Virus record (IMG/VR): IMGVR_UViG_3300037339_000081
Coordinates: 1-37,604 of that record
Direction: 5' to 3' (one strand)
DNA: 37,604 nucleotides
Source of the DNA: a virus
Position 1 is the first letter of the stretch; every line of letters begins with the position of its first letter. Made by a program: the position numbers and the translations under genes. Below the pieces are notes generated by a model, which was given only the letters and a program-made list of their open reading frames with translations, was not told the DNA's origin and made no database searches. This document shows positions 27,699-33,070 of the stretch, piece by piece.

Positions 27699-28223
27699 TC
27701 AGGTGTCGTGCATCTGGTCCTTGCGCTTTTGCAACCACGTCGGCGCCGCGCCGGGCTTCGGCGCGCCGGGCTTCAACGCCGCAGTAGCCTGGGGCTTCGG
27801 CGCCGACGCCGGCGACGGGTAACGCTTCAGCACCTTGTTGCGGTCGCCGAATCCATTCTTTCCGTCTTCGATCCCGACGTTGCCGTTGCACTCGCGCCCG
27901 ACGAATTCCGCGAGGTCGCCACCGCTGACGCCGTACGCGCGCGCGGCGATTGCAAGCTCCCTGCGGCCACGCGCCATGACCTCGCCGCGCTCGTGGGCAA
28001 CGACGTACTGCGACCAAATCTTGCGGCCCTTGCAGGCGCCGTCGGTGATCGTCTCCTCAATCTTCGCCAGCTTCGTCGATGCGTTGTTCCTGCTCGGCTC
28101 GACGCTGGCGCGCGTCACGACGAGGGGATACTCGCCGGCGGGCAGGAGGTCGGGCGTGGTGTCGATTTCCCCAAGGTCGAAGCCAAGGGCGGTGCTGCTG
28201 TCGTCGCTGGTCCAGTCGCTCAT
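27699..28223 (-). CDS. DUF669-like phage protein (ssDNA-binding-related)
   Basis: A 174-residue protein matching the pattern of the DUF669 family: DLLPAGEYPLVVTRASVE near residue 26, then CKGRKIWSQYVVAHE, RRELAIAARAYGVSG and GVEDG-like NGFGDRNKVLKRYP. These proteins occur in phage recombination/replication operons next to RecA-like ATPases and are often taken as single-strand DNA-binding-like; activity is not established here. The C terminus is Ala/Pro/Lys-rich, as in SSB tails but without an acidic tip. The ATG at 28223 follows AGAGGC. Confidence 0.65.
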   Translation of the reverse strand: MSDWTSDDSSTALGFDLGEIDTTPDLLPAGEYPLVVTRASVEPSRNNASTKLAKIEETITDGACKGRKIWSQYVVAHERGEVMARGRRELAIAARAYGVSGGDLAEFVGRECNGNVGIEDGKNGFGDRNKVLKRYPSPASAPKPQATAALKPGAPKPGAAPTWLQKRKDQMHDT

Positions 28224-28295
28224 GATCTGCCTCTGTCGTGATGCGGGCGCCTATCCCCCGCGTGTGGCTGGTAGCCCGTGACGTGGGCCAGTCGT

Positions 28296-28784
28296 TTATC
28301 CGCCGCCGTAGCCGTCGCCGAAGCCGCCGTAGCCGGAGCCGTCGCCGTAGCCGTCGCCGAAGCCGCCGTAGCCGGAGCCGTCGCCGTAGCCGTCGCCGAA
28401 GCCGCCGTAGCCGGAGCCGTCGCCGTAGCCGTCGCCGTAGCCGTCGCCGCCGCCGTAGCCGGAGCCGTCGCCGAAGCCGCCGCCGGAGCCGTAGCCGGAG
28501 CCGTCGCCGAAGCCGCCGCCGGAGCCGTAGCCGGAGCCGTCGCCGTAGCCGTAGCCGCCGCCGGAGCCGGAGCCGTCGCCGTAGCCGTAGCCGCCGCCGT
28601 AGCCGGAGCCGTAGCCGGAGCCGTCGCCGTAGCCGTAGCCGGAGCCGTCGCCGGAGCCGTAGCCGGAGCCGAAGCCGCCGCCGGAGCCGGAGCCGTCGCC
28701 GTAGCCGTAGCCGCCGCCGTAGCCGGAGCCGTAGCCGGAGCCGTCGCCGTAGCCGTAGCCGGAGCCGTCGCCGTCGCCGGTCAC
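28296..28784 (-). CDS. Gly-X repeat low-complexity protein, 162 aa
   Basis: Starts at GTG 28784, overlapping the preceding stop (GTGA), and ends at TAA 28296. After Val-Thr, nearly every second residue is Gly, and the other position is only Asp, Ser, Tyr, Gly or Phe, in units such as GDGSGYGYGDG. All alternate codons end in C, so the DNA is a hexamer array (GGC NNC). It contains three perfect copies of a 39-bp unit near the C terminus (about 28306-28422) and an exact 101-bp direct repeat 120 bp apart. No globular domain is possible. The protein lies in the early replication operon. Reading frames on the plus strand across the array are shadows. It resembles silk- or elastin-like sequences; function unknown. 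Confidence 0.6.
   Translation of the reverse strand: MTGDGDGSGYGYGDGSGYGSGYGGGYGYGDGSGSGGGFGSGYGSGDGSGYGYGDGSGYGSGYGGGYGYGDGSGSGGGYGYGDGSGYGSGGGFGDGSGYGSGGGFGDGSGYGGGDGYGDGYGDGSGYGGFGDGYGDGSGYGGFGDGYGDGSGYGGFGDGYGGG
28306..28422. repeat. Three tandem copies of a 39-bp unit in the Gly-X gene
   Basis: The plus-strand 39-bp unit runs from GCCGTAGCCGTCGCC to GCCGGAGCCGTC three times in a row with no mismatch that I see. It encodes DGSGYGGFGDGYG on the minus strand. Copy number is a likely site of length variation. Exact edges depend on the chosen phase. Confidence 0.75.
28553..28773. repeat. Exact 101-bp direct repeat, 120-bp period, in the Gly-X gene
   Basis: Bases 28553-28653 equal 28673-28773; the flanking bases 28552/28672 (T/A) and 28654/28774 (G/T) differ. 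This is a recent internal duplication within an already repetitive array and predicts slippage or recombination variants. Confidence 0.8.
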
Positions 28785-29074
28785 TTGCCCCACCGCGACC
28801 GCGTCAAGCTTTCGCGCGCGACGACAGAGCACGGGATGATTTCACACGCGCCGATGACCACGATTTCCGGCACCGGCAGGCTAATGCGCGTCCACTCCTG
28901 ATCCGCGCCACGCTGCGACAACTCCGACAGCGTGTTGGCGCCGCGCCATCGCCAAATTCGTCGCGCATCGGACAACGTCACCATGCCGCCGTCGCCGATG
29001 TTCTCCAGCGTGCCACCATGCACGCCAGCATCACGCGAACGCACAATCACAAATTGCTTTTCTTGCGGTTCCAT
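28781..29074 (-). CDS. Conserved phage protein, DUF6948-like
   Basis: A 97-residue protein. FVIVRSRDAGVHGGTLENI, ARRIWRWRGANTLSELSQRG and VPEIVVIGACEIIPCS match a small family widespread in phages that I know as DUF6948-like. Function not known. Start at ATG 29074 (MEPQEK) is preferred because AAAGGAAAGACA precedes it; an ATG at 29089 overlapping the previous stop is an alternative. It overlaps the Gly-X repeat gene by four bases (GTGA). Confidence 0.7.
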   Translation of the reverse strand: MEPQEKQFVIVRSRDAGVHGGTLENIGDGGMVTLSDARRIWRWRGANTLSELSQRGADQEWTRISLPVPEIVVIGACEIIPCSVVARESLTRSRWGK

Positions 29075-29085
29075 TGTCTTTCCTT

Positions 29086-29775
29086 TCATGCCTTGATCTT
29101 TGCCACGACCGCGCCGAGGTCGGCGCGCTCGTATGCATCCAGCCGACCGCTGCGATCCTTCGCCGTGCTCTTGCCATCGGCGGAGGTCAAGAGGTAGCGC
29201 GACGCCACCTTGCCGCCTGCACCGTCGTCCTCGTCGACGACGACGAGGCGAAAGACCTCGTCAAAGAGATAGGGGATCGACTCGCCGAGCTTCGCGCCTG
29301 GCATCCCGATCCCGTAGCTGACGCGCCCCGTCGCCTCGTCCTTCGTCGTCGACATTTTCGCCGAGAAGTAGACGCCGCACGCCAAGTCACGAAACGCGCG
29401 CATGATCCCCAGCATGCTGTCCTGAAGTGCGCCATACGCAGCGCGGGGGTCCTTGGTCTTTGCCTTTTCGGCGCTCAACACCACCTCAGCGATTTCGGAC
29501 ACACTGTCGAGCACGACCCACGCGTACGCGTCGGGCGCCGCCTTGAGCTCGCTGTAGACGGCGCGCAGCGTATCAAGCGACTGCACCTCGACGACGTCGG
29601 CGTCGATGTCGGCGCCGGCAAGCGAGAGCAGGCCAGCCTCGGCCGACAGGATCAGCAGCTTACCGGGCAGGCTTGCCGCAAGGCTGGTCTTGCCAACGCC
29701 TGGCGCGCCGTAAACGACGATTTTCGGTTGATTCTTGCCGATCGCGTCAGCAAGCGTGGTCTTTAAGATTCCCAT
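29086..29775 (-). CDS. RecA-like AAA ATPase (Sak4-type recombination protein)
   Basis: A 229-residue P-loop ATPase: Walker A GAPGVGKTS at residues 23-31 and Walker B WVVLDSVSE with D90. Size and sequence, including AEAGLLSL (after the first beta strand) and a central YGALQDSMLGIMRAFRDL, are like phage AAA_24/Sak4 proteins, RecA-core ATPases that promote strand annealing with an SSB. Its neighbours, a DUF669-like protein and RecB-like nuclease, support this. Start at ATG 29775 with GGGAG seven bases upstream. It may also help replication restart. Confidence 0.8.
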   Translation of the reverse strand: MGILKTTLADAIGKNQPKIVVYGAPGVGKTSLAASLPGKLLILSAEAGLLSLAGADIDADVVEVQSLDTLRAVYSELKAAPDAYAWVVLDSVSEIAEVVLSAEKAKTKDPRAAYGALQDSMLGIMRAFRDLACGVYFSAKMSTTKDEATGRVSYGIGMPGAKLGESIPYLFDEVFRLVVVDEDDGAGGKVASRYLLTSADGKSTAKDRSGRLDAYERADLGAVVAKIKA

Positions 29776-29777
29776 GA

Positions 29778-29954
29778 TCAAACTCCCTCGCCCACTCGGG
29801 CGTCCCTGCAGCCCTCAATCCATCCGTGCAGGTCGACGTAAATCGCCATCGCGTGCCAGCGATCGGGCTCGTCAGTCGCCGCCAGCAGGTCGGCGAGCAG
29901 CACCGACGTAGCGGCGTGCGCGAGTCGGCTGGTCTGGGCGTATTCGCGCTTCAC
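29778..29954 (-). CDS. Small hypothetical protein, 58 aa
   Basis: A 58-residue helical protein (VKREYAQTSRLAHAATSVLLADLLAATDEPDRWHAMAIYVDLHGW...) starting at GTG 29954 that overlaps the previous stop by four bases. No motif recognised. Separated from the ATPase gene by two bases, and may be co-translated with it. Confidence 0.5.
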   Translation of the reverse strand: MKREYAQTSRLAHAATSVLLADLLAATDEPDRWHAMAIYVDLHGWIEGCRDARVGEGV

Positions 29955-30061
29955 ACCGCACCGCCAATCGCGGTGAAGAAGATGTCGATCGCCATGCCGC
30001 GGCGCACGGCCTCGCGCAGGATGGCGCGGCGCATGATCGGGTGCAGGTTGGTCCAGCTCAT
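29951..30061 (-). CDS. Tiny hypothetical protein, 36 aa
   Basis: A 36-residue peptide (MSWTNLHPIMRRAILREAVRRGM...) starting at ATG 30061 with GGAGACCACA directly upstream, the same initiation text seen before other early genes. It ends in a hydrophobic stretch DIFFTAIGGAV. Function unknown; the good ribosome site and four-base overlap with the next gene support translation. Confidence 0.5.
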   Translation of the reverse strand: MSWTNLHPIMRRAILREAVRRGMAIDIFFTAIGGAV

Positions 30062-30093
30062 TGTGGTCTCCGCTGTCAAGGTGGCGTGTGAAA

Positions 30094-30288
30094 TCAGGCG
30101 ACAAACAACGCGACGCGGCTGCGCGAGACACGCACACTGCGGAGCATGCCGGCGCGCACGAGGCGACGGACGCGAGCGTAGCTGGCGCGATGACCGCGAC
30201 CGCTCCACTCATGGCGCACGACGTCCATCGTGCAGCAGCCGGGGTGTGCGCGCACAAAATCAACGACAGTCTGTTGGCGGTTCGTCAT
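30094..30288 (-). CDS. Small winged-helix-like DNA-binding protein, first gene of leftward operon
   Basis: A 64-residue basic protein (MTNRQQTVVDFVRAHPGCCTMDVVRHEWSGRGHRASYARVRRLVRAGML...) with helix, turn and strand spacing like a winged helix. ATG at 30288 is preceded by GGAGACCGCA. Being the first gene after the leftward promoter, it could be an early autoregulator of the divergent region. That role is inferred from position only. Confidence 0.55.
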   Translation of the reverse strand: MTNRQQTVVDFVRAHPGCCTMDVVRHEWSGRGHRASYARVRRLVRAGMLRSVRVSRSRVALFVA

Positions 30289-30336
30289 TGCGGTCTCCGT
30301 TGTTTGCGGCCGGCGCGCCGCGTGGGTGGTGAAGTC

Positions 30337-30365
30337 ATCCTACGCGTGATCTGCTGACGTGTCAA
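30337..30365 (-). promoter_or_regulatory. Leftward early promoter TTGACA-N17-TAGGAT
   Basis: On the minus strand the -35 TTGACA (30365-30360) matches the sigma70 consensus, then 17 bases, then -10 TAGGAT (30342-30337). Transcription would start near 30330, about 40 bases before the first ATG at 30288. The -35 overlaps the left arm of the palindrome at 30361-30378. Confidence 0.75.
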
Positions 30366-30378
30366 GCGTGCGCTTGAC
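30361..30378. promoter_or_regulatory. Palindromic operator candidate GTCAAGCG-TG-CGCTTGAC
   Basis: A perfect 8-bp inverted repeat with a 2-base centre. Each arm supplies most of the -35 hexamer of one of the two divergent early promoters, so a dimeric repressor or activator bound here would affect both at once. Half of it (12 bases) recurs at 36093-36104. Confidence 0.7.
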
Positions 30379-30402
30379 GAAAGTGCAGATCAGGGCTAAG
30401 GT
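30374..30402 (+). promoter_or_regulatory. Rightward early promoter TTGACG-N17-TAAGGT
   Basis: TTGACG (30374-30379), 17 bases, TAAGGT (30397-30402), sigma70-like. It reads toward the methyltransferase gene at 30456 and helicase and primase genes. Its -35 lies in the right arm of the palindrome shared with the leftward promoter. Confidence 0.65.
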
Positions 30403-30455
30403 GGCTTCAGGACGCGACGCGGAAACGGATCTGCGCGTGATCAAGAGGTGAGGTG

Positions 30456-31361
30456 ATGCGTGAGCTGGCTCTGTTCGCGGGCGCTGGTGGCGGGATACTC
30501 GGCGGGCACCTGCTCGGATGGCGCACCGTTTGCGCCGTCGAGCACGACGCCTATGCCGCAGGCGTACTTGTGGCTCGACAAAACGACGGCTGCTTGGCGC
30601 CGTTTCCCGTCTGGGATGACGTGTGCACCTTTAACGGACGACCGTGGCGAGGCGCTGTTGACGTCGTGTCTGGCGGCTTCCCGTGCCAGGACATCAGCAG
30701 CGCAGGAAAAGGCGCAGGGATCACCGGGGAGCGCAGCGGACTTTGGCGAGAGATGGCGCGAATCATTTCTGAAGTACGACCCCGATACGCGTTCGTGGAA
30801 AACTCACCGCTCCTTGTTCGACGAGGACTTGTTGTCGTCCTCGGTGACCTTGCCTCGCTGGGGTATGATGCGCGATGGGGTGTGCTGGGAGCTCACGACG
30901 TCGGAGCGCCACACAAGCGGGACCGCATTTGGATCGTTGCTGCCGACGCCTCAATCTGCGGATTGGAAGGGAGCGGTGTCCGCAACGGATTGCGCAGCTC
31001 GCCGTGTGCGGATGGGACAGACGAACTTGCCGGAGGCAATCGTGGAATCGTTGCGGATGTGGCCGACGCCAGTGGCCGATGGGGACCGCACGACGAACTA
31101 CGCCCAAGGCGGCACGTCGCTGGGGTTTGCGGTGCGGAACTTGTGGCCGACGCCAACAAGCAGCGAGCACAAGTACCGACTGCAGGGCAACAGCCAGCAA
31201 AGCAAGAGCCTGAACGGGCAGGCTGGTGGAAAGTTGAACCCAACGTGGGTCGAGTGGCTCATGGGGTGGCCGCTCGGGTGGACCGACTGCGCTGCATCGG
31301 CAATGGACAAGTACCAGCGGTGGCGGCGTTTGCATGGCGCGTGCTTGGGGGTGGCCGATGA
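30456..31361 (+). CDS. DNA cytosine-5 methyltransferase
   Basis: A 301-residue enzyme with the Dcm motif set: motif I LFAGAGGGILGG (residues 6-17), motif IV SGGFPCQDIS with catalytic C77, motif VI FVENSP (113-118), motif VIII GAPHKRDRIW (150-159) and motif X RLRCIGNGQVPAVAAFAW (near 277-294). Between VIII and X lies a variable recognition region with VADA repeats. ATG at 30456 follows AGAGGTGAGGTG; a GTG at 30453 is an alternative. It modifies DNA, probably against host restriction. A second long open frame with its own conserved motifs occupies the +1 frame across the whole gene. Its stop overlaps the helicase start (ATGA). Confidence 0.9.
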   Translation: MRELALFAGAGGGILGGHLLGWRTVCAVEHDAYAAGVLVARQNDGCLAPFPVWDDVCTFNGRPWRGAVDVVSGGFPCQDISSAGKGAGITGERSGLWREMARIISEVRPRYAFVENSPLLVRRGLVVVLGDLASLGYDARWGVLGAHDVGAPHKRDRIWIVAADASICGLEGSGVRNGLRSSPCADGTDELAGGNRGIVADVADASGRWGPHDELRPRRHVAGVCGAELVADANKQRAQVPTAGQQPAKQEPERAGWWKVEPNVGRVAHGVAARVDRLRCIGNGQVPAVAAFAWRVLGGGR

Positions 31362-31371
31362 AACTGCGTGA
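30460..31371 (+). CDS. Overprinted +1-frame protein within the cytosine methyltransferase gene
   Basis: A 303-residue frame starting at GTG 30460, four bases after the methyltransferase ATG and able to use the same ribosome site, ending ten bases past it. The protein begins MSWLCSRALVAGYSAGTC and carries strings I recall from a separate phage family of unknown function: FLKYDPDTRSWKT, TLPRWGMMRDG, several LPTP/WPTP repeats (LLPTPQSADWKG, MWPTPVADG, LWPTPTSSEH) and near the end GGKLNPTWVEWLMGWPLGW then MDKYQRW. GC-rich DNA gives long chance frames, so length is not evidence, but these strings are. Whether it is translated is untested. If real, one DNA segment encodes two proteins. Confidence 0.55.
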   Translation: MSWLCSRALVAGYSAGTCSDGAPFAPSSTTPMPQAYLWLDKTTAAWRRFPSGMTCAPLTDDRGEALLTSCLAASRARTSAAQEKAQGSPGSAADFGERWRESFLKYDPDTRSWKTHRSLFDEDLLSSSVTLPRWGMMRDGVCWELTTSERHTSGTAFGSLLPTPQSADWKGAVSATDCAARRVRMGQTNLPEAIVESLRMWPTPVADGDRTTNYAQGGTSLGFAVRNLWPTPTSSEHKYRLQGNSQQSKSLNGQAGGKLNPTWVEWLMGWPLGWTDCAASAMDKYQRWRRLHGACLGVADETA

Positions 31372-33070
31372 TTATCAGCAAGCCGCGGTGGACGCGGTGG
31401 TCAAGTATTGGGAGCGCGGCGGGCTCCACCCGCTCGTTGAGGTGCCCACCGGCGGCGGCAAGAGCGCGATCCTTGGCGCGCTTGCGCGCGTGGTCGTGCA
31501 GGACTGCGGCGGTCGCGTGGTGATCGCCACGCACCGGGCTGAGCTGATCGATCAGGACGCCGCAGCGTGCCGGCGCGTGTGGCCGCAGGCGCCGGTTGGC
31601 ATCTACAGCGCCGCGCTCGGACAGCGGCGCGTCAGCGACATTACCGTGTGTGGGGTGGCGAGCGTCGCAAAGCGCGCCGACGTTCTAGGGCGCGTCGACG
31701 TGCTGATTGTCGACGAGGCGCACCTGATCCCGGCCGAAGGGGATGGGCAGTATCAGACGTTGGTGCGTGGGCTGCGCGAGGCAAACCCCGCGCTGCGCAT
31801 CGTGGGGCTCACGGCGACGCCGTATCGGCTGTCGCAGGGCTACCTCACGCAAAATAGCGGGGCACTCTTCACATCGATCTGCTACCGCGTCGACGTGGCG
31901 AGCCTGATCGCGCAGGGGCACCTTGCGCCGCTGGTGACGGGCGCGGTCGGAGCGCAGATCGACACCGACGCGCTCGCCGTGCGCGCGGGTGAATTTGCTG
32001 CGCGCGACCTCGAGCTCGCGGCCGACGTGGCCAGCGTGACCGAGCACGTCGCCGATGACGTGGCTGCGGCGCTTCAGGCGGGCCGTACGTCGGCGCTGCT
32101 CTTTGGCGTGGGTGTCGCTCACGCGCACCACCTGGCCGAAGCCGTGCGCGATCGTGGCGTGTCCTGCGAGGTCATCGTGGGCGAGACCGAGCAGATGGTG
32201 CGTCAGGCGATCATCGGCCGCTTCCGTCGGCGGGAACTTCAGGCCATCGCATCGTGCGACGTCCTCACCACCGGCTTTGACGCGCCCGTCGTCGACACGC
32301 TGGCGGTCGTGCGCCCGACGTGTTCGGCGTCGCTATGGGTGCAGATGGTGGGCCGCGGCATGCGTCCCGCAGAGGGCAAGAGCGACTGCTTGGTGCTCGA
32401 TTACGGGGGGAACATCGCAAGACACGGCCCCGTCGACGACGTGCGGATCAAGGAGCGCAAGGGCGAGGGCGGCGGCGACGCGCCGGTGAAGACGTGCCCG
32501 AACTGCTGCGCGCAGTGCCCTGCGGGCGCGCGGACGTGCAGCGAGTGCGACGCCGAATTCCCGCCACCGGAGAAAAAGGCGAACGCGCGCGCGTCCGATC
32601 TGCCGGTGCTGTCGACCGGGTCGATCGACGGCACCAAGACGACGGAGACGGTGCACGACGTTGCGGAAGTGGCGTTCGTGCGGCACGACAAGAGGGGCGG
32701 CGGCACTCCTAGCTTGCGCGTCGATTACTACGCGCCCGCGGCGTCGGCGTCGGCAATCCCGACGAAGATTGCGAGCGAGTGGATCTGCATTGAACACGAG
32801 GGCTTTGCGCACGCGAAGGCGTGCGGCTGGTGGGCGCGCAACGTCAACACTCGCATGCCCGACACCGTCGACGAAGCGGTCGAACGCCTGCGCGCGGGCG
32901 AGATGCGCCGTGCTGAAGCGATCAAGACGAAACCCGATGGGGACTTCACGCGCGTTGTGGGTTTGCTGCTCGCGCGCGGGCGCGAGCCTGGCGAAGACGA
33001 CGACGTGACCGAGGCGCCGACGACGGCGCCGGTTGATCCTTTTGATGGCATCGACGATCTGCCGTTTTAA
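31358..33070 (+). CDS. SF2 DNA helicase (DEAH type) with zinc ribbon
   Basis: A 570-residue helicase. It has Walker A PTGGGKS (30-36), DEAH (119-122), TATP (152-155), TTGFDAP (304-310) and QMVGRGMRP (329-337). A zinc-binding cluster with six Cys (C380 to C397; CPNCCAQC and CSEC) follows the helicase core, then a C-terminal region with VALF-type strand VAFVRHD and an acidic tail (DPFDGIDDLPF), which may contact a replication or SSB-like partner. ATG at 31358 overlaps the methyltransferase stop. Likely acts in replication fork unwinding or recombination. Confidence 0.85.
   Translation: MKLRDYQQAAVDAVVKYWERGGLHPLVEVPTGGGKSAILGALARVVVQDCGGRVVIATHRAELIDQDAAACRRVWPQAPVGIYSAALGQRRVSDITVCGVASVAKRADVLGRVDVLIVDEAHLIPAEGDGQYQTLVRGLREANPALRIVGLTATPYRLSQGYLTQNSGALFTSICYRVDVASLIAQGHLAPLVTGAVGAQIDTDALAVRAGEFAARDLELAADVASVTEHVADDVAAALQAGRTSALLFGVGVAHAHHLAEAVRDRGVSCEVIVGETEQMVRQAIIGRFRRRELQAIASCDVLTTGFDAPVVDTLAVVRPTCSASLWVQMVGRGMRPAEGKSDCLVLDYGGNIARHGPVDDVRIKERKGEGGGDAPVKTCPNCCAQCPAGARTCSECDAEFPPPEKKANARASDLPVLSTGSIDGTKTTETVHDVAEVAFVRHDKRGGGTPSLRVDYYAPAASASAIPTKIASEWICIEHEGFAHAKACGWWARNVNTRMPDTVDEAVERLRAGEMRRAEAIKTKPDGDFTRVVGLLLARGREPGEDDDVTEAPTTAPVDPFDGIDDLPF

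Follow-up and report, generated by a model that had tools for sequence, protein, structure and literature searches.

Overlapping reading frames of a phage locus very likely encode the two chains of one C5-cytosine methyltransferase

The window analyzed in this study, a virus record, comprises 37,604 bases, and two open reading frames on its plus strand, alpha (30453-31361) and beta (30460-31371), overlap almost from end to end. Both frames are maintained as coding sequences, and beta has a conserved start codon of its own. We consider it highly likely that this segment encodes a two-polypeptide C5-cytosine methyltransferase (MTase) in which alpha catalyzes the reaction, beta provides target recognition and motif IX, and the assembled enzyme methylates the phage genome. 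Alpha, read in frame 0, would represent the large domain, which carries motifs I-VIII and X and is responsible for AdoMet binding and catalysis, and the independently started beta, read in the +1 frame, would represent the small domain, composed of target-recognizing PTP cassettes with motif IX behind them. Both chains would be synthesized from one mRNA and assemble into a single enzyme, whose methylation of the phage genome would most likely confer protection against restriction. The assembly of alpha and beta, the need for both chains, the role of the cassettes as recognition modules and the protection against restriction are what we infer from the results described below.

The locus has the following features:
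30453..31361, plus strand: alpha, predicted catalytic subunit of a C5-cytosine DNA methyltransferase (PF00145, E 3.9e-30; phrog_363, E 9e-67; AlphaFold2 match to M.HhaI, Z 18-19)
30460..31371, plus strand: beta, +1-frame protein of 303 amino acids, proposed recognition/motif IX subunit (phrog_1008, E 2.3e-28; start and open frame conserved; C-terminal half homologous to single-gene MTase)
30445-30448 and 30450-30453, plus strand: putative tandem GAGG boxes, read from the sequence, located 7 nt before ATG 30456 and 6 nt before GTG 30460, respectively

The positions of both reading frames agree with an earlier note on this DNA, which had described an MTase and an overprinted +1-frame protein. 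Alpha comprises 302 amino acids when started at GTG 30453 and 301 when started at ATG 30456. The beta start codon GTG 30460 is located 4 nt after this ATG, and beta ends 10 nt beyond the alpha stop codon. The single ribosome site that the note had assigned to both starts was replaced by the two GAGG boxes, each at its own distance from the respective start. The strings quoted from the two frames proved to be exact: EVRPRYAFVENS of alpha overlaps DPDTRSWKT of beta (30778-30804), GNGQVPAVAA overlaps MDKYQRW (31303-31323), and the VADA repeats of the enzyme are the WPTP repeats read one base earlier. Downstream of the locus, genes for a helicase and a primase are located. The helicase most likely begins with ATG 31358 (MKLRDYQQ...), and therefore positions 31358-31361 would be read in three frames, as the end of alpha, as part of beta and as the start of the helicase. 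Near 30 kb, the GC skew changes from about -0.07 to +0.13 (positions 28001-32000 examined), and gene direction flips at this turn from minus, represented by a Sak4-like gene (29086-29781), to plus.

The number of stop codons expected in a second frame was determined by permuting synonymous codons within each gene. In 200 permutations of the window MTase, the +1 frame contained on average 3.8 stops, and none of the permuted sequences was free of stops. In an unbiased set of 67 non-redundant relatives, which had been retrieved with the alpha protein alone, a single internal +1 stop was observed compared to 302 expected, and 66 of the 67 genes had none; the +2 frame of the same relatives contained 987 stops compared to 904 expected. 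When alpha was divided into four consecutive segments, 0, 0, 0, and 1 stops were found in the +1 frame, compared to 33, 41, 51, and 66 expected. Since this deficit extends over every segment of the catalytic domain, the N-terminal half of beta is maintained, too. As a control, three other genes of the window contained 11, 13, and 20 stops in their +1 frames (expected 11.8, 14.8, and 14.9), and five relatives lacking a nested beta contained 4-7 (expected 2.8-5.3). The permutations and the stop levels of these controls rule out a +1 frame that is open by chance.

The start codon of beta was present in all 62 relatives (58 ATG, 4 GTG), and in 52 of the 62 loci an ATG, GTG or TTG of alpha is positioned 4 nt 5' of it. 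A search of IMG/VR with the beta protein revealed at least 598 confirmed stretches; among the best 80 of these matches, nearly all were open in both frames over about 300 codons, at a locus GC content of 37-69%, and the third frame contained 6-28 stops per locus. Synonymous codons of alpha are frozen around the beta element NPTWVEWLMGWPLGWTD (identity 0.92 versus 0.33 expected), and they show an excess of identity also in the stretch around DPDTRSWKT. Full-length overprinting, as suggested in the earlier note, is thus strongly supported, and the constraint test in relatives that it had proposed revealed a +1 frame under purifying selection and almost devoid of stops. A few loci carry a lone stop, either in the alpha frame with beta intact (bacterial-genome copies L183, L197, L214, L234, and L237) or in the beta frame (L006/L101 and L094), perhaps as a consequence of decay or sequencing errors. 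A candidate for a stand-alone beta, found in Gallionella next to an MTase frame with nine stops (L236, 3001-3987), was rejected because one indel swaps both frames, so that the intact-looking ORF consists of the beta N-terminus followed by the alpha C-terminus. Each ORF of this locus is half alpha and half beta, as a result of either misassembly or gene decay.

To determine on which frame selection acts, changed codons were classified in pairs of relatives. For the variable region, DNA similarity was used to select the pairs, which avoids favoring beta. Synonymous and non-synonymous changes amounted to 6203 and 2767 in beta (69% synonymous), compared to 493 and 8599 in alpha (5%) and to 819 and 8436 in the third frame, which served as yardstick. 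With pairs selected by similarity of the alpha protein, the corresponding numbers were 7963 and 6556 for beta and 1148 and 13663 for alpha; pair counts of this kind are not independent events. The test was repeated with these two types of pairs because pairs selected by beta similarity would bias the result, and its direction remained unchanged. In the catalytic stretches (alpha residues 2-165), 52-71% of the changed alpha codons were synonymous, and few in beta. Selection in the variable region thus acts on beta and not on alpha, which is a new observation. As alpha owns the catalytic part and motif X and beta owns the variable region, alpha runs through a beta coding region back to its own motif X.

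Alpha has the attributes of a C5-MTase, i.e., motifs I, IV (PCQ), VI (ENV/ENS), VIII, and X and a large AdoMet-binding domain, and altogether carries motifs I-VIII and X, of which the following were located:
30681..30689, plus strand: alpha motif IV, catalytic PCQ, with the Cys codon at 30684-30686 (P76 and C77 invariant, Q78 conserved to at least 90% in 61 relatives)
30798..30806, plus strand: alpha motif VI, ENS (E115 conserved to at least 90%, N116 and S117 invariant in 61 relatives)
31299..31316, plus strand: alpha motif X, GNGQVP (residues conserved in relatives; 49% of changed codons synonymous in alpha versus 9% in beta)

In the AlphaFold2 model of alpha, motifs I-VIII and the motif X helix are arranged as in M.HhaI. 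Residues 184-282, at the place of the recognition domain, have a pLDDT below 50 and are unfolded in the model, and alpha lacks the small domain that provides TRD and motif IX within single-chain enzymes. We did not classify alpha as an ordinary single-chain MTase because this small domain is missing, as evident from the unfolded residues, from the low synonymous fraction in the variable region and from the motif IX-like text found in beta.

In the C-terminal half of beta, PTP cassettes form an array, behind which LNPxWVEWLMGWPxGWTD is located. The elements of beta are:
30778..30804, plus strand: beta motif DPDTRSWKT, located on alpha motif VI (T115 invariant, W113 conserved to at least 90% in 63 relatives)
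30940..31059, plus strand: beta cassette 1, LPTPQSADWKG... (cassette pattern)
31060..31143, plus strand: beta cassette 2, WPTPVADGDRTTNYAQGGTSLGFAVRNL (27 residues identical to a cassette of Geothrix campi, L207)
31144..31236, plus strand: beta cassette 3, WPTPTSSEHKYRLQGNSQQS... (cassette pattern)
31237..31287, plus strand: beta motif IX-like element, NPTWVEWLMGWPLGWTD (near invariant in beta; in a single-gene MTase, aligned with EWMMGWPAGW)

The bases of the motif IX-like element, when read in alpha, encode the segment leading into motif X. In the mycobacteriophage proteins Aggie gp53 and Hamulus 68, the order LLPTPxAxD..., EWMMGWPAGWV..., and motif X is found in frame with a catalytic domain within a single gene. 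A profile of 63 beta proteins aligned to Hamulus 68 with an hhalign E-value of 2.8e-11 and a probability of 97, the alignment including the PTP cassettes and EWMMGWPAGW. By sequence comparison, this establishes the C-terminal half of beta as a homologue of the part of single-gene C5-MTases that comprises recognition region and motif IX, and beta very probably recognizes the target sequence. EWMMG or EWLMG was equated with motif IX by position, order, and the pattern MGxPxxW, because in a HMMER comparison with M.HhaI the single-gene MTase matched in its N-terminal half only. Beta gave no significant match in Pfam and NCBIfam, and PDB sequence searches with beta alone and as a profile led to chance-level matches only. 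Its AlphaFold2 model, folded without alpha, had a pLDDT of 58 and matched no PDB structure. The earlier note had attributed the +1-frame strings to a distinct phage family, which can be corrected, as they belong to the recognition/motif IX part of C5-MTases. The homologues outside the shadow of an intact MTase gene that it had proposed to look for were found as gene 41 of Orcanus, gene 80 of JaNo and the C-terminal halves of Aggie gp53 and Hamulus 68.

The 174 beta proteins analyzed contain one to four cassettes each, with a median length of 36 amino acids. The 368 cassettes represent about 146 types, 36 of which have at least three members; these counts are approximate because the boundaries were set by a simple pattern. 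Many types recur at differing positions and with differing neighbors, and 147 of the 174 arrays are distinct. Cassette 2 of the window and its counterpart in G. campi are 100% identical in amino acids and 83% in DNA, compared to 39% for the beta core, and the alpha texts differ at this place. 'WPTP' cassettes have been shuffled between distant phages, and the cassettes are probably recognition modules, as judged from position, selection, and shuffling. There is about an even chance that the beta frame serves as a modular, horizontally shuffled library for DNA recognition, by which phages would change the specificity of the split enzyme through exchange of cassettes of approximately 36 codons that have to remain open in two frames, with alpha reading through to motif X; the N-terminal half of beta would in that case have been added de novo over the catalytic domain.

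The two parts of the enzyme occur in a series of arrangements. Among actinophages, they are fused in Aggie gp53 and Hamulus 68, separate and without overlap in Arthrobacter phage Orcanus (genes 40 and 41), and overlapping by tens of bases in JaNo (79/80) and Phontbonne (79/78) and by several hundred bases in phiBT1; in the window they are nested. JaNo gene 80 (L281, 988-2265), annotated as hypothetical, is the recognition half, and in L086 (2802-3897) and many similar mycobacteriophage records adjacent overlapping 'DNA methylase' genes correspond to a single enzyme, with its catalytic half encoded by one gene and its recognition half by the other. A scan of bacterial genomes led to 376 confirmed stretches; the best 80 of these were mostly from Pseudomonas, Acinetobacter, and other Pseudomonadota, and 66 of the 80 had no stop in either frame across the match. 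A second, distant nested clade is present in Enterobacteriaceae (L259, L260, L262, L263, and L270) and comprises dcm-like methyltransferases with GQLNPAHSRWLMGFPPEW or similar text in the +1 frame. The +1 partner of this clade carries RWLMGFPPEW, and its beta relatives were found in 217 phage records. Full-length MTases with a shorter beta ORF nested in the +1 frame, containing WIEWLMGFP or WVEWLMGYP, are present in Spikelee (gene 77; L084) and Lacticaseibacillus phage R9.1 (L087), and belong to other host groups.

The layout of a split MTase in two frames is known but rare, common in phages, and mostly annotated as a single gene. In public annotation, alpha is retained for Acinetobacter phage ABMM1, and Pseudomonas phage phPA-G retains beta under the name 'hypothetical protein'; of the RefSeq and phage records examined, most retain alpha, and beta is retained in at least one. 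Genes that overlap extensively on the same strand of a cellular or phage genome are usually dismissed, and in most cases just one of the frames is annotated; here, hundreds of loci share a long overlap (about 300 codons), and both frames likely have a function. The series from fused via separate to nested genes points to a way in which overlaps of this kind may be formed or lost. Enzymes recorded as 'solitary phage C5-methyltransferases' may in many cases lack activity when cloned as alpha alone or codon-optimized.

The GC content of 67% thins out stop codons, and some other frames of the window are open over more than 200 codons, so that beta might be regarded as an untranslated shadow, open by chance through high GC content and the amino-acid order of the MTase. 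This is extremely improbable given one stop against 302 expected and a start codon in 62 of 62 loci, and the frame stays open at a GC content of 37-41%, too; the frozen synonymous codons, the predominance of synonymous beta changes in the variable region and the chance-level stops of non-nested relatives argue against it as well. Programmed frameshifting, in which translation starts with alpha and a +1 shift adds the recognition half to form a single chain like Aggie gp53, would fit the existence of fused single-frame relatives, and the short overlap in actinophages such as Phontbonne could be a shift site. We regard it as very improbable, as beta of the nested clade has its own start in 62 of 62 loci and is essentially free of stops from there, and the Orcanus genes are fully separate; moreover, the product would miss motif X because this motif is in frame 0.

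Alpha might also be complete alone and beta an independent inhibitor, regulator or anti-restriction factor. Although alpha has all catalytic residues and beta lacks a significant Pfam match, the homology of the beta C-terminal half to MTase sequence and the unfolded, non-conserved matching region of alpha make this improbable. A separate anti-restriction protein, which the earlier note had considered, is not indicated, even if protection of phage DNA by the assembled enzyme is quite possible; the suggestion of a 'built-in partner' made in the note is strongly supported. Finally, beta could be a partner subunit whose PTP cassettes are linkers, which is compatible with a two-chain MTase except for the recognition step. 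The weak prediction of the cassettes in the structure model would be in line with this possibility, but purifying selection on their amino acids, the re-use of about 146 types in varied positions and neighborhoods and their location where TRDs sit in C5-MTases render it rather unlikely.

The proposed two-chain enzyme can be compared with several known systems. The window proteins fall into PHROG 363 (alpha) and PHROG 1008 (beta), which are both labelled DNA methyltransferase, and these labels are silent on the two being frames of one locus. In the literature available, no phage MTases overlapping in another frame were found, and no biochemistry was found for the phage clade of the window. A DNA search for distant similarity in E. 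coli genomes, aimed at restriction-modification loci like that of M.EcoHK31I, revealed phage-type MTases only. The multispecific C5-MTases of Bacillus phages SPR, phi3T, and rho11 contain tandem short recognition modules between motifs VIII and IX that are exchanged by phages, and are single chains read in a single frame. In the window, tandem exchangeable cassettes were found, which may correspond to such modules if each of them recognizes DNA with a specificity of its own. In M.EcoHK31I (YGGCCR), reportedly described by Lee, Kam, and Shaw in 1995, the second gene is said to lie inside the first one in another frame and to encode a beta of about 176 amino acids that starts well inside alpha. 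The window beta likewise is an overlapping second ORF in another frame, but has 303 amino acids and overlaps nearly from end to end.

M.AquI (CYCGRG) is a two-subunit C5-MTase whose small subunit bears motifs IX and X (PMC3404938). As in the window, motif IX is separated from the chain that bears the catalytic motifs, but motif X is in alpha here, so that the window does not belong to the M.AquI type; phiBT1 and Phontbonne do, with motifs IX and X on the second polypeptide. In M.EcoHK31I, motif IX resides on a polypeptide separate from the one bearing motifs I-VIII and X, and the predicted TRD was placed on the larger subunit (PMC3404938). According to this description, the window pair has the same distribution of motifs, with motif IX assigned in the window by position, order, and pattern. 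The recognition region is placed on beta here and on the larger subunit in M.EcoHK31I (PMC3404938), which counts against the present explanation; by description, the window differs in that its variable region contains the PTP cassettes and evolves as a coding sequence of beta. The architecture is thus known from M.EcoHK31I, and new are the end-to-end overlap, the recognition region owned by beta, and the shuffled cassettes.
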